NCBI GenBank assembly: GCA_944388965.1 | Contig: CALXKL010000001.1 | Coordinates: forward strand, 310,001 to 374,000 | Length of the DNA: 64,000 nt | From: an uncultured Spirochaetales bacterium | GTDB lineage: Bacteria > Spirochaetota > Spirochaetia > Sphaerochaetales > Sphaerochaetaceae | Direction of reading: 5' to 3' | Part shown: in pieces, positions 32,521 to 40,907 of the stretch | How positions within the stretch are numbered: position 1 is the first letter of the stretch | Layout: the number at the start of each line of letters is the position of its first letter | Translations under genes and position numbers: made by a program | Notes under the pieces: generated by a model | Told to the model about the DNA's origin: nothing | The model's database searches: none | Seen by the model: only the letters and a program-made list of their open reading frames with translations

Positions 32521-33105
32521 ATGAAGGCGCAGCTTCAATGGCTCATAGGAGGTGTCGTACTCCTCCTGGTTGGGATCTTCGTTCTGGTGAATCCGACGAC
32601 GGTGCTCAAGGTCGCCGTGATAGGTTTCGGCCTGTATACGATGATCGAGGCGCTGTATGCACTTGTGATGTCGTTCTCGTTCCGGAGCGTCGGAGGCGTG
32701 TTCACGTTCAACGCCGTGCGCTCGCTCCTAAGCCTCGTGATCGGACTTCTGGTCGTCTACTTCGCCGCGACCAGCAGCGGCGCGAGCGTGGCCGGCTGGA
32801 CGGTATACCTCATCGCCATCTGGCTTCTTGTGTCGGCGATCGGCGAGATCGTAGAGATACAGGCGCTCAGGAAGGCCGGATTCGACATGTTCAGCGCCTC
32901 GAACGCCATCGTGTCGATCGTGCTTGCCCTGATCATGTTCCTCTTCCCCGTGGTGGTGAACAACGCGATCTTCATCACGGTCGGAATATTCCTCATCCTC
33001 ATCGCCATCGGCCTGATCGTCTGGGGCGTCAGGATGATGATGTTCGAGAAGCGGCTGAAGGACGAGTTCAAGGTCAGCGAGACGGAATGGGAGGAGAAAT
33101 CTTGA
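32521..33105 (+). CDS. HdeD/DUF308-like membrane protein
   Basis: A 194-residue membrane protein with six hydrophobic segments in hairpin pairs, as in the DUF308 (HdeD) family. The repeated pattern LIGGVVLLLVGIFVLVNPTTVLKVAVIGFGLY is typical. Its function is unknown; relatives are linked to acid stress. The -35 box of the his operon promoter overlaps its stop codon. Confidence 0.8.
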   Translation: MKAQLQWLIGGVVLLLVGIFVLVNPTTVLKVAVIGFGLYTMIEALYALVMSFSFRSVGGVFTFNAVRSLLSLVIGLLVVYFAATSSGASVAGWTVYLIAIWLLVSAIGEIVEIQALRKAGFDMFSASNAIVSIVLALIMFLFPVVVNNAIFITVGIFLILIAIGLIVWGVRMMMFEKRLKDEFKVSETEWEEKS

Positions 33106-33130
33106 CCCGATGGGGCCACTTGCCTAAAAT
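33102..33130 (+). promoter_or_regulatory. Promoter of the histidine operon
   Basis: TTGACC (33102-33107) and TAAAAT (33125-33130), with an ideal 17-bp spacer. The expected start, about 33137, is just before the AGGAGGAG site of the leader peptide. Confidence 0.75.
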
Positions 33131-33158
33131 GTAGGCAGAAAGGAGGAGACGTCCGCAT

Positions 33159-33206
33159 ATGAAGGCATATCACCGCCATCATCATTTCATCGAAGTCAGG
33201 CGGTGA
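33159..33206 (+). CDS. hisL: Histidine operon leader peptide
   Basis: A 15-residue frame, MKAYHRHHHFIEVRR, with four His codons in five positions (residues 5, 7, 8, 9). It is preceded by AGGAGGAG about 10 bases upstream and placed between the his promoter and a terminator. A ribosome slowed at these codons would sense the charging of tRNA-His. This is the signature of ribosome-mediated attenuation as in enteric bacteria. Confidence 0.85.
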   Translation: MKAYHRHHHFIEVRR

Positions 33207-33259
33207 CATCGGCGGGCTGTCCAGAGGAACCCTCGTCATTGTCACGAGGGTCTTTTTTT
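33171..33259 (+). terminator. Histidine operon attenuator
   Basis: CACCGCC (33171-33177), inside the His codons, pairs with GGCGGTG (33199-33205) at the leader stop codon: the 1:2 pause hairpin. The terminator is ACCCTCGT (33229-33236) with ACGAGGGT (33244-33251), followed by a run of seven T. The antiterminator pairing (2:3) could not be settled by eye. Confidence 0.8.
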
Positions 33260-33278
33260 ATCCATATGGGAGGTTGAG

Positions 33279-34151
33279 ATGGACGAGCAGAGGAGACTGA
33301 GGATAGCGATCCAGAAGAGCGGCAGGCTTTCGGAGAAGAGCCTTGATATAGTGCACAGCTGCGGAATCGACTTCAATGCCGATGGCAGAGTGCTCAGGGA
33401 GGTCGCATCGAACTTCCCTCTGGAGTTCCTCTTCGTGCGCGATGACGACATCCCCACCTATGTCGCAGACGATGTGGCGGACATCGGCATCGTCGGACGC
33501 AACGAGGTGGACGAGTCCGGCTACGAGCTTGAGGTCGTCCGGGACCTGGGCTTCGCCGCCTGCCGTCTGTCCATAGCCGTTCCGGAAGGGTTCCGCTATG
33601 AAGGACTGAAGAGCCTGGAGGGCAGAAGAATCGCGACAAGCTATCCGCGCATCCTTTCCGGCATTCTCGAGGACAACGGAGTGAAGGCGACGCTCGTCAC
33701 CGTCTCCGGCAGCGTCGAGATAACCCCGACTGTCGGAATCGCCGACTGCATATGCGACCTGGTCAGCACCGGCACCACGCTCAGGATGAACGGGCTCAGG
33801 GAGGTCGAGGCGATCTACCACACCTCCGCGGTCATGGTGTGCAGACCCGGCTTCCGCCAGGACGGGGAGAAGGCGGCCATCCTCGACCGCCTGCTGCTCA
33901 GGATGGACACGGTCAACAACGCCAGGAAGAAGAAGTACATCCTGTTCAACCTCCCTGCGGACAGAATCGACGATGCCGCCCGCATCGTGGGCGGAATGAA
34001 GAGTCCGACGGTCACGCCTCTCCTCGACAGGTCCTGGGTGTCTGTCCAGTCCGTGATCGCGGAGGACCGTTTCTGGTCTGTATTCGAGGACCTGAGGGCC
34101 ATCGGCGCCGAGGGCATACTCGTCATGCCGATCGAGAAGATGTCGGACTGA
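33279..34151 (+). CDS. hisG: ATP phosphoribosyltransferase, long form
   Basis: A 290-residue HisG that catalyses the first step of histidine synthesis (ATP plus PRPP). It is the long, hexameric form that needs no HisZ. The catalytic half has IAIQKSGRLSEKSLDI, DVADIGIVGRN and the PRPP loop ADCICDLVSTGTTLRMNGL. The C-terminal third (about 210-285: YILFNLPADRID) is the ACT-like domain that binds histidine for feedback inhibition. A GGAGGTTGAG site precedes the ATG. First gene of an eight-gene his operon. Confidence 0.97.
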   Translation: MDEQRRLRIAIQKSGRLSEKSLDIVHSCGIDFNADGRVLREVASNFPLEFLFVRDDDIPTYVADDVADIGIVGRNEVDESGYELEVVRDLGFAACRLSIAVPEGFRYEGLKSLEGRRIATSYPRILSGILEDNGVKATLVTVSGSVEITPTVGIADCICDLVSTGTTLRMNGLREVEAIYHTSAVMVCRPGFRQDGEKAAILDRLLLRMDTVNNARKKKYILFNLPADRIDDAARIVGGMKSPTVTPLLDRSWVSVQSVIAEDRFWSVFEDLRAIGAEGILVMPIEKMSD

Positions 34152-34162
34152 GGAGGCTGATG

Positions 34163-35455
34163 ATGTATTTGAAGTACTATGACGACCCTGCCAGGGATGA
34201 GTATCTTCCGCTTCTCAGACGTTCGCTCGTGGACGACTCGAGCGTCAGGGAGAGCGTCCAGGGCATAATCGATGAGGTCATCAGGCGCGGCGACGAAGCA
34301 CTCAGGGAATACGAGCTGCGCTTCGACGGATCCCGGCTGGACGACTTCGCCGTCACGCAGGAGGAGTTCGACGAGGCCGAGAAAGCCGTCTCACAGGACC
34401 TGAAGGACGCAATCGCCGTATCACATGCCAACATCGAGGCCTTCCATCGCAGCCAGATGCCGCAGGGGGAGCGCGTACAGACGATGCCTGGCGTCGAATG
34501 CTGGAGGCGCATCGTCCCGATCCGGAAGGTCGGCCTGTACGTGCCGGGCGGAACGGCCCCGCTGTTCTCGACCGTGCTGATGCTTGCAATCCCTGCCCGT
34601 GTGGCTGGATGCCGCAGCCTGACGCTTGCCACCCCGAGCCATGGTGGACGGGTGAACCCTGCAGTGCTGTACGCGGCAAAGGTGTGCGGCGTGGATAGGG
34701 TCCTCAAGCTCGGCGGGGCGCAGGCGATAGCCGCGCTTGCCTATGGCACGGAGTCGATCGAGCCCGTCGACAAGATATTCGGCCCCGGCAACCGCTATGT
34801 GACATTCGCCAAGAGCATCGTGTCGAGCCGCTGTTCGATAGACATGCTGGCCGGTCCGAGCGAGGTGATGGTCGTGGCGGACGCGGATGCGGATCCTTCC
34901 TATGTCGCCTCCGATCTTCTCAGCCAGGCCGAACACGGCCCCGACAGCCAGGTCATACTGCTGATCAGGGCCGCTTCCCGCATAGAGGGGCGGAGGATAT
35001 ACGAGGCGGTGGAGAAGGCCATCGGCGACGAGTTATCCATACTCGGACGTCACGAGTACATGCTGCCCAGCCTGTCGCACTCATGCGCCATCACGACATA
35101 TGACGATGACAGGCTCGTCGACATAGTGAACGAATACGCCCCCGAGCATCTGATCATCGATACTGTGGACTGCGATGAGTTGTGCACCCGCATAGAGAGT
35201 GCAGGCTCCATATTCCTCGGCCCGTACTCCCCCGAGTCCGCAGGCGACTACGCCTCGGGGACCAACCATACGCTTCCCACCTCAGGTTGGGCTCACAGCT
35301 GCGGCGGGGTGTCCCTGGACAGCTTCATCAAGAAGATCACCGTCCAGAAGCTGACAAGGGAAGGTCTTGCAGGCCTTGGGAAGACAGTCGTGACGATGGC
35401 CGAGGCCGAGGACCTGATGGCCCACAGCCAGGCCGTGAAGGTGAGGTTGTCATGA
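34163..35455 (+). CDS. hisD: Histidinol dehydrogenase
   Basis: About 430 residues. HisD oxidises L-histidinol to histidine in two NAD+-dependent steps with zinc. Signatures: YVPGGTAPLFSTVLM, FGPGNRYVTFAK, DMLAGPSEVMVVAD, the SQAEHGPDSQ zinc/substrate region, and the end-of-pathway His pair near EYAPEHL and GTNHTLPTSGWAHSCGG. Two adjacent ATG codons (34160, 34163) are possible; AGGAGG at 34151-34156 favours 34163. Confidence 0.97.
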   Translation: MYLKYYDDPARDEYLPLLRRSLVDDSSVRESVQGIIDEVIRRGDEALREYELRFDGSRLDDFAVTQEEFDEAEKAVSQDLKDAIAVSHANIEAFHRSQMPQGERVQTMPGVECWRRIVPIRKVGLYVPGGTAPLFSTVLMLAIPARVAGCRSLTLATPSHGGRVNPAVLYAAKVCGVDRVLKLGGAQAIAALAYGTESIEPVDKIFGPGNRYVTFAKSIVSSRCSIDMLAGPSEVMVVADADADPSYVASDLLSQAEHGPDSQVILLIRAASRIEGRRIYEAVEKAIGDELSILGRHEYMLPSLSHSCAITTYDDDRLVDIVNEYAPEHLIIDTVDCDELCTRIESAGSIFLGPYSPESAGDYASGTNHTLPTSGWAHSCGGVSLDSFIKKITVQKLTREGLAGLGKTVVTMAEAEDLMAHSQAVKVRLS

Positions 35456-36501
35456 GCGTCGTGGATCTGATGAGGGACAACATCCGGGCTCTGGAGCCGT
35501 ACAAGTGTGCACGTGACGAGGCCGGATCGGGGATGAGGGTCTATCTCGATGCGAACGAGAACTGGGCTCCCATCATCGACCACGATGGCATAAACCGGTA
35601 CCCCGACTCGTCGAATCTGGCCATAAGAAAGGCGGCCGAGAAGGCTCTTGGAATCCCCGCCTCCATGTCATGTGCCGGCAACGGGTCCGATGAGCTGATC
35701 GACATCCTCATACGCATCTTCTGCAATCCCGGAAGGGACTGCATACTAACGCTTCCCCCCACATATGGAGAATACGGAGTCCTTGCCGCGATCAACGATG
35801 TGGAGGTCGTGACATGCCCCCTTCGCGAGGACTTCTCCATCGACGAGGACGCCGTCATGAGGACGATCGACGAGAAAAGGCCCAAGCTGACGTTCCTGTG
35901 CTCGCCGAACAACCCCAGCGGCAACCTCCTGGACCGGGATGCGATCAGGAGGTTGGCGGAGGCGAACGCCGGAATCACCGTCGTCGACCATGCATACATA
36001 GACTTCGCCCCCCAGGGTGAGCTGACCTGGAAGGATGTCGAGGACAACGAACGTCTGGTCATCCTGCGCACCCTCTCCAAGGCATGGGCGCTTGCCGGTG
36101 CCCGGATCGGACTGATGATCGCCGCTCCGGAGATCCTGGCCAAGGCGTATGACGTGAAATACCCGTACAACATACCGCTTCCTTCCAGCCAGGCGGCCGT
36201 CCAGGCCCTTTCGGACGTGGAGGGATGCAGATCGCGTCTTAGGCAGATACTTGCCAACCGCTCGTATCTGGCCCGGCGCCTGTCGGCGATCGATGGAGTG
36301 AAGGATGTCCTCGCCAGCGATGCGAACTTCTTCCTCATCAGGGTCGACGAGCCGAAGAGGATCTACGAATCGCTCAAGAAGAAGGGGATCGTCGTACGTG
36401 ACAGGAGCGGCAACCTGCACTGCGAGGGATGTCTCCGGATAACGGTCGGCTCCAGAGAGGAGTGCGACGAGCTTGCCGCTGCATTGGAGGAACTGCTTTG
36501 A
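35452..36501 (+). CDS. hisC: Histidinol-phosphate aminotransferase
   Basis: A 349-residue PLP-dependent class I/II aminotransferase acting on imidazole-acetol phosphate. Motifs: LDANENWAP, CAGNGSDELID, CSPNNPSGN, and LSKAWALAGARIG with the PLP Lys. It starts at an ATG that overlaps the hisD stop (ATGA). Confidence 0.97.
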   Translation: MSVVDLMRDNIRALEPYKCARDEAGSGMRVYLDANENWAPIIDHDGINRYPDSSNLAIRKAAEKALGIPASMSCAGNGSDELIDILIRIFCNPGRDCILTLPPTYGEYGVLAAINDVEVVTCPLREDFSIDEDAVMRTIDEKRPKLTFLCSPNNPSGNLLDRDAIRRLAEANAGITVVDHAYIDFAPQGELTWKDVEDNERLVILRTLSKAWALAGARIGLMIAAPEILAKAYDVKYPYNIPLPSSQAAVQALSDVEGCRSRLRQILANRSYLARRLSAIDGVKDVLASDANFFLIRVDEPKRIYESLKKKGIVVRDRSGNLHCEGCLRITVGSREECDELAAALEELL

Positions 36502-37616
36502 ACGCCAAGGCTCTGAAGAAGGTGCTGTTCATAGACCGCGACGGCGTAATCGTCGAGGAGACCCAGGTCGACAGCCTGGAGAAGATCCGCTTCATTCCTC
36601 ATGTCATGGAGGCCCTGCGCACCATACGCAGGCAGACGGACTACCTGCTGGTCATGGTGTCCAACCAGGACGGAGTGGGCACACCCTCATTCCCGATGGA
36701 GGATTTCAAGCTCTGCCATGACAGGATCATCCAGATCCTCGAGGGGGAGGATGCGTCGTTCGACGACCAGAGGATAGACTTCTCGCTTCCCCAGGACGGA
36801 TGTCCCGGGCGCAAGCCCGGCACCGCCATGCTTGCCGACTACATGGACGGGCAGTACGATCTGGAAAACTCGTTCATGATCGGCGACAGGGCAAGCGACA
36901 TGCAGCTTGCTCGCAACCTGGGGTGCAGTGGCATATGGTTCCATGAAGGACACGAGGGTGGGGAAGGCATCGTCCTGGAGACCTCCTCATGGCTCGAGGT
37001 CGCATCGTTTCTCACCGGATGCGACATGGAGCACAGGAAGGCCCACATCGTGCGTACCACGAAGGAGACCAGCATAGACCTGACTGTGGATCTCGACGGC
37101 AACGGCCGGGGATGCATAGAGACGGGAATCGGCTTCTTCGACCACATGCTCGAGCAGCTGGTGCGCCATGGCAGGCTGGATGTCGAGGCGCATCTGGAAG
37201 GCGACACCTGGGTCGACGAACATCACAGTGTCGAGGACATGGCACTGTGCCTGGGCAAGGCGGTGCTCTCGGCGCTTGGAGACAAGAGGGGGATACAGCG
37301 CTACGGCTTCGACCTGCTTTGCATGGACGAGGTCCACTGCGAGGTGTCCATGGACTTCAGCGGGCGCAGCGACCTCGTCTTCGACGGGCGCTTCTCCCGC
37401 GAGTACGTCGGCAGCTTCCCGACCGAGATGATACGCCACTTCTTCAAGTCGTTCTCCAACGAGGCCAGGTGCTCCCTATACATCGCATTCTCGGATGGCA
37501 ACGCGCATCATCAGGCGGAGGCGGTGTTCAAGGCGTTCGCCAGGGCCTTGAGGATGGCGGTCAGGAGAATCTCGGGCAGCGACGAGGTCGTGTCGACCAA
37601 GGGGGTCCTCGAATGA
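36498..37616 (+). CDS. hisB: Bifunctional histidinol phosphatase / imidazoleglycerol-phosphate dehydratase
   Basis: A 372-residue fusion like E. coli HisB. Residues 1-170 are a HAD phosphatase (FIDRDGVIVEE, SNQDGVGT, RKPG, GDRASDMQLA). Residues about 180-372 are IGP dehydratase with its manganese-binding His clusters (FFDHMLEQLVRHG, DEHHSVED, SDGNAHHQAEAVFKA). It starts at a TTG overlapping the hisC stop (TTGA), behind a GGAGG site. The structural zinc site of enteric HisB (Cys-x-His...Cys-x-Cys) appears reduced to a single Cys before RKP. The fused form is unusual outside gammaproteobacteria, Bacteroidota and a few others. Confidence 0.96.
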   Translation: MNAKALKKVLFIDRDGVIVEETQVDSLEKIRFIPHVMEALRTIRRQTDYLLVMVSNQDGVGTPSFPMEDFKLCHDRIIQILEGEDASFDDQRIDFSLPQDGCPGRKPGTAMLADYMDGQYDLENSFMIGDRASDMQLARNLGCSGIWFHEGHEGGEGIVLETSSWLEVASFLTGCDMEHRKAHIVRTTKETSIDLTVDLDGNGRGCIETGIGFFDHMLEQLVRHGRLDVEAHLEGDTWVDEHHSVEDMALCLGKAVLSALGDKRGIQRYGFDLLCMDEVHCEVSMDFSGRSDLVFDGRFSREYVGSFPTEMIRHFFKSFSNEARCSLYIAFSDGNAHHQAEAVFKAFARALRMAVRRISGSDEVVSTKGVLE

Positions 37617-38209
37617 CCGCGATGATAGACTACAACGCCGGCAATGTCTTCTCCGTGGCCGCTGCTCTGCGCCGTCTGGACGAGGAGGTCGTGCTCACCG
37701 ACCAGGCCGATGTGATCCTCTCTGCGGACAGGGTGGTGTTCCCCGGGGTGGGCTATGCGGATGCGGCGATGAAGGAGCTGGAGAGGAGGGGGCTTGTGGA
37801 CGTTCTGAGGCGTGTCGAGGTTCCTTTCCTGGGCATCTGTCTGGGCATGCAGCTGATGTGCCGTCACAGCCAGGAGGGGGATGTCGACATGCTCTCCATC
37901 GTCGATGCTCCCGTGGTCAGGTTCGAACGCGACGTGTGCCGTAAGATACCGCAGATCGGCTGGAACCGGGTGTATGGCATGGACTGTCCGCTCTTCGACG
38001 GCATAAGGGACGGCAGCTGGTTCTTCTTCGACCATTCCTACCACGTCCCGCTCATGGACCAGGGCTGTGCCGCCAGGACGGAGTACTACGGCTACGAGTA
38101 TTCCAGCGCGATATCCAAAGGGCTGTTCTTCGGCGTCCAGTTCCATCCAGAGAAGAGCGGAAAGGACGGATCGAGACTGCTTGCGAACTTCCTTTCGATG
38201 GAGGCCTGA
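37613..38209 (+). CDS. hisH: Imidazole glycerol phosphate synthase, glutaminase subunit
   Basis: A 198-residue class I glutamine amidotransferase that supplies ammonia to HisF. The catalytic Cys is in GICLGMQ, and the His-Glu pair in VQFHPEKSG. IDYNAGN at the N-terminus is typical. Its ATG overlaps the hisB stop (ATGA). Confidence 0.97.
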   Translation: MTAMIDYNAGNVFSVAAALRRLDEEVVLTDQADVILSADRVVFPGVGYADAAMKELERRGLVDVLRRVEVPFLGICLGMQLMCRHSQEGDVDMLSIVDAPVVRFERDVCRKIPQIGWNRVYGMDCPLFDGIRDGSWFFFDHSYHVPLMDQGCAARTEYYGYEYSSAISKGLFFGVQFHPEKSGKDGSRLLANFLSMEA

Positions 38210-38210
38210 G

Positions 38211-38942
38211 ATGATCGTCATACCCGCGATAGACGTGATCGAAGGCAGGTGCGTGCGTCTCTCGAAAGGCGACTACGATACGAAGAAGGTGTACTCGGAC
38301 GATCCCGTCGCGATGGCAAGGCGGTTCGAGGACGCGGGTCTGACCCATCTTCATCTTGTCGACCTGGAAGGGGCCAGGGCACATGAGCCGCGCAATCTCG
38401 ATGTCCTTTCGGCCATATGCGAGGCGACGGACCTCGTCGTCGACTATGGAGGAGGCATGTATGCCACCTCTTCGCTCGAGGATGCCTTCGCGAGAGGCGC
38501 CTCATATGTCACATGCGGCTCCATCGCCGTCAGGGATCCTGATCTGGCCGCCTTGTGGATAGACAGGTGGAAGGAGCGCATCATACTCGGCGCCGACTGC
38601 ATCGACGGCCTTGTGTCGAGCGGCGCCTGGATGGACCGCTCGTCGCTGGATGTCGTGGAATTCATACTGAAGTACATGGCGCTCGGAGTCGGCATGTGCA
38701 TATCGACGGACATATCGAAGGACGGGATGCTGTCAGGACCGGGCTATGAGCTGTACGGCAGGATTCTTTCATCCTGTCCCGCGATCCGGCTTGTCGCGTC
38801 CGGCGGAATAGGATCCGTGGACGATCTTGAGCGTCTTGCCGGGATGGGACTGTACGGCGCGATCGTCGGAAAGGCCTTCTACGAGGGCCTCATCACGCCC
38901 GAGGAGATGAAGGAGGTTGAGCAGTGCTTGCCAAGAGGATAA
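38211..38942 (+). CDS. hisA: ProFAR isomerase
   Basis: A 243-residue TIM-barrel isomerase (phosphoribosylformimino-5-aminoimidazole carboxamide ribotide isomerase). The start [18 protein letters not shown] with the catalytic Asp, the second Asp in [13 protein letters not shown], and phosphate loops (VDYGGG, ASGGIGS) are clear. The ATG lies one base after the hisH stop. Confidence 0.97.
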
Positions 38943-39691
38943 TCCCATGTCTGGACATCAAGGACGGGCGCACCGTCAAGGGGATCAACTTCCTCGATCT
39001 GCGCGATGCGGGCGATCCTGTGGAGAACGCCGTCAGGTATTGCCAGGAGGGGGCGGACGAGCTGGTCTTCCTTGACATAACCGCCACTGTCGAGAGACGG
39101 GAGCCGCTCTCGTCCCTGGTCCGGCGCATCGCCGAGCACATCGACATTCCGTTCACCGTCGGAGGGGGCATAAGGAGCATCGAGGACGTGCGCGGCATCC
39201 TCACAAGCGGTGCGGACAAGGTCTCCATCAACAGCCAGGCGGTACGGGTTCCCTCTCTCATCACGCAGGCATCGGCGCTCTTCGGCGCCCAGTGCATGGT
39301 CGTCGCGATCGATGTAAGGCGTAACGGAGACACGAGCTCCGGATACGAGGTGTACATCGACGGAGGACGTACACCGACAGGATTGGACGCATTGCAGTGG
39401 GGGAGGAAGGTAGAGGAACTCGGCTGCGGCGAGATACTGCTTACCAGCATGGAGGCGGACGGCACGAAGAACGGCTTCGACCTGCCCATCACATCGCTCA
39501 TGGCAAGGAGCCTGGGCGTGCCCGTGATCGCATCCGGCGGGGCCGGGACGATGGACGATTTCCTCGCGGTGTTCCAGGAGGGGTGCGGTGCGGATGCGGC
39601 CCTGGCCGCCTCCGTATTCCACTACCATGAGATAGATATCGGCTCTCTGAAGGCCTATTTACAAAGTCGTTCGATTCCTGTTAGGTTGTAG
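38924..39691 (+). CDS. hisF: Imidazole glycerol phosphate synthase, cyclase subunit
   Basis: A 255-residue TIM-barrel cyclase. [16 protein letters not shown] holds the first catalytic Asp; the second is expected in [26 protein letters not shown] is the phosphate loop. It starts at GTG 38924, inside the end of hisA (19-bp overlap), after an AGGAGG site at about 38911. Confidence 0.97.
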
Positions 39692-39711
39692 GAATCTTTT
39701 GGAAGGGGATT

Positions 39712-40320
39712 ATGGCGATCGATTTCGAGAAGGGAGATGGGCTTGTTCCGGCCATTGTGCAGGATGCCGTCACGCATAGGGTTCTGATGCTCGGCTACAT
39801 GAACGCCGAAGCCTACCAGCTGACGCTGGACAGGGGGCTTGTGACCTTCTGGTCACGTTCCAGGCAACGCATCTGGACCAAGGGCGAGACCAGCGGCAAC
39901 TTCCTCCAGGTCAGGGAGATCCTCACCGACTGCGACAACGACACCCTGCTCGTGAAGGCGATTCCCTCCGGGCCCGTCTGCCATACGGGCGCCGACACCT
40001 GCTTCAACGAGGAGAACGAGCCTGGCGAGATGACCAGCACCGAGTTCCTGGTATACCTGGAGGACGTCATCGCTGACAGGAGGAACAATCCCCAGGAAGG
40101 CAGCTACACGAACCATCTCTTCAGCCGTGGGCTCAACAAGATCGCCCAGAAGGTGGGAGAGGAGGCCGTCGAGCTGATCATCGCCTCCAAGGACGACAAC
40201 AAGGAGCTCTTCCTCGGCGAGGCCGCCGACCTGATGTACCACTTCCTCGTGCTTCTGGCCCAGAAGGACACGAAGCTTGCCGAGGTCGTGGACGTCCTCA
40301 AGGGCCGCCACTCCCGCTGA
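39712..40320 (+). CDS. hisIE: Bifunctional PR-AMP cyclohydrolase / PR-ATP pyrophosphatase
   Basis: A 202-residue fusion. Residues 1-110 are the HisI cyclohydrolase ([44 protein letters not shown] metal site). Residues 111-202 are the HisE pyrophosphatase ([36 protein letters not shown]). It catalyses steps two and three of the pathway and closes the biosynthetic set. Confidence 0.97.
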
Positions 40321-40907
40321 TGTTCACAGATCACATCGAAGACGGCTGCATCATAGGCCAGACGATCGAAGGCGAGGACGCCTCTTTTCTGGTCCTCGAT
40401 CCGCTGTCGGCAGAGGAGTGCACCTTCCGGTCGGTGGATTTCACCTCATCACAGCTGACAGGGGCCTCCATCAGCGGCTGCACGTTCACTTCATGCGACT
40501 TCTCCTCCTGCGACCTTACAGGAACCCACATGGTGGGCGTCCGATTCGAGGAGTGCACGTTCAGGGGCACGATTCTCGTCGAGACCAGTCTGAAGAACGT
40601 CACGTTCCATTCCTGCTACATGCAGTATTCGTCCTTGGGTTCGTCCAGAATGGACACGGTCTCGTTCGACGACTGCTCTCTTGTGGAGAGCGACCTGTCC
40701 TCGCTTCGCCACAGGAGGCTTGAGATCGTCCATTCACGCCTCGAGAGGGCCTCGTTCACCGGAACGCCCCTCAGAGACGTCGACCTCAGTGGAAGCGACA
40801 TCACCTCCGTATTCCTCAGCCAGGACCTTTGCGAGATGCGTGGTGCACGTCTGGACGTGTCGCAGGTCATGCAGCTTGCCTCGTCCCTCGGCATCCGCAT
40901 CGTGTAG
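40320..40907 (+). CDS. Pentapeptide-repeat protein
   Basis: A 195-residue protein built of degenerate pentapeptide repeats with Phe/Leu/Ser at the centre of each turn (CTFTSCDFSSCDLTGTHM, FEECTFRGTILVETSLKNVTF, and similar), which should fold as a right-handed four-sided beta helix. Its ATG overlaps the hisIE stop (TGATG), so it is translated with the his operon. Related proteins can protect DNA gyrase or serve as scaffolds, but no function can be assigned. The link with histidine synthesis is unusual. Confidence 0.85.
   Translation: MFTDHIEDGCIIGQTIEGEDASFLVLDPLSAEECTFRSVDFTSSQLTGASISGCTFTSCDFSSCDLTGTHMVGVRFEECTFRGTILVETSLKNVTFHSCYMQYSSLGSSRMDTVSFDDCSLVESDLSSLRHRRLEIVHSRLERASFTGTPLRDVDLSGSDITSVFLSQDLCEMRGARLDVSQVMQLASSLGIRIV

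Follow-up and report, generated by a model that had tools for sequence, protein, structure and literature searches.

A probable ribosome-mediated histidine attenuator in a Sphaerochaetaceae-type spirochaete and its predicted leaderless counterparts in relatives

The window analyzed here is a 64,000-nt stretch of DNA from an uncultured Spirochaetales bacterium. It contains a complete histidine operon, hisGDC(NB)HAF(IE), with hisG as its first gene, and the whole His pathway is encoded downstream of the element described below (Table 1). The gene of a pentapeptide-repeat protein (40320–40907) shares one base with the end of hisIE and is possibly cotranscribed with the operon. On the other side, a DUF308-like gene apparently lies upstream of the leader in many relatives as well, with no terminator in between.

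Table 1. Features of the hisG upstream region and the his operon (window positions).
Feature	Position	Strand	Remarks
DUF308 protein gene	32521–33105		Upstream of the promoter; stop codon overlaps the −35 box
−35 hexamer TTGACC	33102–33107	+	Runs over the stop codon at the end of the DUF308 gene
−10 hexamer TAAAAT	33125–33130	+	17-nt spacer to −35
Predicted transcription start	A33137	+	Deduced from spacing
Leader peptide Shine–Dalgarno (SD) AAAGGAGG	33139–33146	+	12 nt upstream of the leader ATG, spacing rather long
Leader peptide ORF MKAYHRHHHFIEVRR, then stop	33159–33206	+	15 codons, four His codons
Hairpin 1:2 (pause/anti-antiterminator)	33170–33206	+	UCACCGCC (33170–33177) pairs with GGCGGUGA (33199–33206)
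Antiterminator 2:3	33203–33245	+	33203–33208/33240–33245, 33211–33216/33232–33237, 33220–33222/33226–33228
Intrinsic terminator 3:4	33223–33259	+	Stem 33223–33256, T7 run 33253–33259
hisG SD GGGAGG	33268–33273	+	
hisG, long form with C-terminal regulatory domain	33279–34151	+	TIGR00070 1.3e-54, TIGR03455 2.4e-26
hisD, hisC, hisNB (bifunctional), hisH, hisA, hisF, hisIE	34163–40320	+	

The promoter is of the sigma-70 type and was the sole promoter-like site in a simple scan of 500 bp on both strands (0.2 expected); the terminator was likewise the sole terminator-like site (0.3 expected in the same kind of scan). The SD of the leader forms an anti-SD duplex of −12.1 kcal/mol. The His codons of the leader start at 33171, 33177, 33180, and 33183 (33171–33173 and 33177–33185) and thus occupy four of five positions, and the T run of the terminator ends 19 nt upstream of the hisG ATG. 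The His-codon triplet and the T7 run are 67 nt apart, and a pattern search for CAYCAYCAY-N55-80-T7 returned this site as the single occurrence in the whole 2.1-Mb genome. A preliminary description, made from the sequence alone, had listed a promoter, an SD, a 15-codon leader with four His in five positions, a pause hairpin with its 5′ arm in the His codons, and a terminator with seven T before hisG, and each of these was recovered in its place.

The 138-nt leader RNA folds with −45.3 kcal/mol (z = −2.9 versus shuffles). The 5′ arm of hairpin 1:2 spans His codon 1 and stops within His codon 2, and the stop codon lies in the 3′ arm. The antiterminator, which the preliminary description did not contain and which is added here, consists of the helices GUGACA/UGUCAC, GGCGGG/CUCGUC, and UCC/GGA; it takes the 5′ arm and the loop of the terminator and thereby competes with and excludes it. 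A ribosome footprint was set on every His codon in turn and on the stop codon, and the RNA left uncovered was folded for a series of polymerase positions. With the ribosomal A site at His codon 2, 3, or 4 and the RNA extending up to the 3′ arm of the terminator, the antiterminator was the best fold (−19.7 kcal/mol). A ribosome at His codon 1 lets the terminator win once its 3′ arm is made, and one at the stop codon leaves the terminator as the only structure able to form. When no ribosome is present, hairpin 1:2 and the terminator form together. Once the RNA was complete (to the end of the U-run), the terminator was favored whatever the state of the ribosome, so that the decision between the two structures would have to fall during transcription. 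Membership in the Rfam His leader family RF00514 and identity as a His T-box were both rejected: at gathering score, no Rfam family (the T-box among them) gives a match in the window, and neither of these two models matches the attenuator region even at E up to 10.

Homologs of HisG were searched in 61 genomes, and the upstream DNA was then inspected. A His-rich leader and a terminator precede hisG in 30 of the 30 loci with HisG at least 59% identical, and a scan of named genomes added 16 further loci from spirochaetes (Sphaerochaeta sp., Sphaerochaetaceae, and uncultured Spirochaetales), each of which carries both. Together with the locus of G040, these make 47 distinct spirochaete loci. The preliminary description had let its reading depend on the His codons and the terminator in close relatives, and both are kept at all 47 aligned loci, with three to six His codons in the relatives against four in the window. 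Outside the His run, the leader peptide varies freely and is not conserved between genera. The HisG of the window groups with Sphaerochaeta in an unrooted tree, in agreement with the spirochaete origin suggested earlier. No His leader was found in G056 and in 15 Spirochaetia with much more distant HisG, whose upstream DNA was readable and in which hisG is possibly not the first gene. Since the leader accompanies close HisG and is absent with distant HisG, the element, as judged from these sequences, tracks one kind of his operon. Among Bacteroidota with HisG 50–56% identical to that of the window, 44 of 62 have a His-rich ORF upstream; the HisG tree, being unrooted, is not used to argue for a transfer in either direction between Bacteroidota and spirochaetes. 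In a genome of the same genus that is 95% complete (G012), no hisG was found, and the organism is possibly a histidine auxotroph, or the assembly has a gap.

Covariation was counted on an alignment (A2) of 19 relatives outside the genus of the window. Within the genus, the structures rest on single-sequence folds; a genus-only MAFFT alignment (A3) displaced the terminator arms, and no covariation was counted on it. In A2, 83% of the cells of the antiterminator helix are paired versus at most 59% in slid controls, four pairs are changed on both sides, and the covariation score is 0.287 versus 0.174 for shuffled alignments, with 0 of 500 shuffles reaching it. For the terminator, 92% of the cells are paired and the score is 0.348 versus 0.178 (0 of 500). 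Each of the two helices exceeds every one of the 500 shuffles and every slid control in both cells paired and covariation score. As both covary, the same columns keep two mutually exclusive pairings. Complementarity also exceeded that of shuffles in 30 thinned loci, where the mean z was −1.62 for 1:2 (p = 3e-10) and −1.19 for 2:3 (p = 2e-7), both p values ignoring the remaining relatedness, and the arm of hairpin 1:2 reaches the His codons in 29 of the 30.

Here, we propose that the element is a ribosome-mediated transcription attenuator of the his operon, a reading that we hold with high confidence. The preliminary description had arrived at the same reading, to which the competing antiterminator and the conservation and covariation in relatives now lend support; from these, we infer that the ribosome stalls, that transcription ends early, and that the operon responds to histidine. 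When charged His-tRNA is plentiful, the ribosome would pass the His codons to the stop codon and cover segment 2, and RNA polymerase would leave the template at the terminator, ahead of hisG. Under a shortage of His-tRNA, the ribosome would stall on the His codons and cover segment 1. Segment 2 (33203–33222) would then pair with the 5′ arm and the loop of the terminator, and the polymerase would read into hisGDC(NB)HAF(IE). If the leader is not translated, hairpin 1:2 would form and termination would be the default. Translation of the leader would begin from the SD in the window and apparently from a leaderless message in most relatives.

The leader peptide or the short terminated RNA may instead act in trans, possibly besides attenuation. 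The leaders are short separate ORFs, and there is a precedent in trpL of Sinorhizobium meliloti (PMC7298713), but the lack of conservation of the peptide beyond the His run between genera speaks against such a role, which we regard as unlikely. A plain 5′-UTR terminator or processing hairpin next to a chance His-rich ORF, giving constitutive partial termination and no sensing, would draw on the fact that a short ORF with four His in five codons is by itself just mildly rare (0.18 expected on each strand of 64 kb), another being present on the minus strand of the window. Against this, 47 of 47 loci keep the terminator and the His run, together with the place of this run in the 5′ arm of the 1:2 hairpin, while the remainder of the peptide changes, and the competing antiterminator covaries, which leaves this explanation very improbable. 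Equally slight is the chance that another His sensor is in control and the leader is secondary: T-boxes and HisR-type repressors control his genes in Firmicutes (PMC9413887), but the T-box model has no match in the window at gathering score and none in this region at E up to 10.

The attenuators of most relatives appear to differ from that of the window in how the leader is translated. For each of the 47 distinct spirochaete leaders, the best match of an E. coli-type promoter matrix upstream of the His run was taken as the promoter. In 38 of 47 loci, the leader ATG follows the −10 hexamer at 6–10 nt (L006, L010–L030, L032–L046, and L048; for L028, the second in-frame ATG, 7 nt from the hexamer, was used), and in 29 of 47 the distance is exactly 6 nt. 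RNA polymerase usually starts 7 nt past the −10 hexamer, which would place the first base of the mRNA on the A of the leader AUG or on a neighboring base. All 29 leaders with the 6-nt spacing have a C or T just before the ATG. Leaders of this type have no SD: the median anti-SD duplex is −2.6 kcal/mol versus −10.2 kcal/mol for hisG of the same loci (p = 8e-8). From these sequence features, the leader mRNA is predicted to be leaderless in 38 of 47 loci; a ribosome would load on its 5′ end at once as transcription starts at the A of the AUG. In the window, 28 nt separate the −10 hexamer from the ATG and an SD is present, so the AUG lies inside the transcript and not at its 5′ end. An SD and a distance of 19–35 nt from −10 to ATG occur in eight loci, all belonging to the genus of the window; the distance is 32 nt in L111. 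On the HisG tree, a single gain would account for the SD form; it falls in a subclade with strong support, the sole one with a 5′ UTR and SD, which includes the window and one leaderless member (L006). We consider it likely that the his attenuator of Sphaerochaetaceae-type spirochaetes, and perhaps that of Bacteroidota with the same hisG, was ancestrally leaderless and that the subclade of the window later gained the 5′ UTR and SD. If so, this would be a natural swap of the initiation mode inside one and the same attenuator. In many Bacteroidota his leaders (L051–L108), the His-rich ORF begins 4–12 nt past a TAnnTTTG −7 box, and these leaders are perhaps near-leaderless, which we note as a lead only; many of them end in HHFHHSS.

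The genome of the window carries a second attenuator candidate, upstream of ilvN-ilvC-leuA (L188; G000:C2:186200-191000, minus strand), and the presence of such an element in the genus speaks in favor of attenuation at hisG as well. Only the neighborhoods of leuA and ilvB were inspected for other attenuators; a trpE family search gave no match in this genome and almost none in the genus, and leuA and ilvB are present. The ilv leader is rich in Leu, Ile, and Val (MKRYISTTSSEPSGAIVLIALLIGD) and has an SD, a GC-rich hairpin, and a T7 run; its L/I/V-rich C terminus and the terminator are kept in six genomes of the same genus (L189–L194). No leader was found directly upstream of leuA or ilvC because both genes lie inside the operon; the leader precedes ilvN instead. 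Within the genus, genomes whose his leader is of the predicted leaderless type carry an ilv leader with an SD (L191–L193); the leaderless his leader is thus not simply a habit of the lineage. Leaderless starts may nevertheless not be rare in the class, as the leaderless promoter pattern occurs at one to some 30 sites per genome versus 0–4 in a reversed control.

In the literature searched, which excludes the broad attenuation survey Lopatovskaya 2010, no description of his attenuation in spirochaetes was found, as the preliminary description had supposed. As far as this literature shows, ribosome-mediated his attenuation is newly placed in Sphaerochaetaceae-type spirochaetes, and ribosome-mediated amino-acid attenuation, his and probably ilv, is extended to this lineage. 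In the covered part of PMC4833913, Spirochaetales enter a statistic of leader–gene distance, not as a case of his attenuation; PMC9413887 and PMC2965389 place his attenuators in Proteobacteria and Firmicutes, and PMC9723704 hints at leader-peptide attenuation in Flavobacterium psychrophilum. The relatives form a series of close attenuators that appear to differ in leader translation, leaderless versus SD-led, which is rarer than attenuation itself, and predicted pyrimidine-A start sites are kept at exact spacing. This series makes it testable whether ribosome loading at a 5′-terminal AUG changes the timing of attenuation.

The closest known counterpart in layout is hisL of E. coli and Salmonella (RF00514), which shares with the window a His-rich leader peptide, alternative 1:2, 2:3, and 3:4 hairpins, a U-run terminator directly before hisG, and the operon order GDC(NB)HAF(IE). 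E. coli hisL has seven His codons. The window element differs in having four, in not matching the Rfam model, and in belonging to another phylum, and most of its relatives are apparently leaderless. The Bacteroidota his leaders (L051–L108) share the same kind of HisG (50–56% identity) and a short His-rich ORF upstream; they differ in their Bacteroidota promoter type and longer leaders, and are known here from ORFs and promoter boxes. The Firmicutes his attenuators (Bacillus cereus group, Peptostreptococcaceae, and Erysipelotrichales; PMC9413887) and the hisS/hisZ leaders (PMC2965389) have three to five consecutive His codons with a terminator and an antiterminator, but they belong to another phylum, and the parts of both papers covered report no leaderless arrangement. 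Leaderless attenuators are known from trpL of S. meliloti (PMC7298713), and leaderless polycysteine ORFs from mycobacteria (Canestrari 2020, as cited in PMC9031893). Transcripts of both start with the AUG of the leader peptide, the arrangement predicted for 38 of 47 spirochaete his leaders; the two systems differ from the latter in amino acid and phylum, and the leader of the window itself has a 5′ UTR and an SD.
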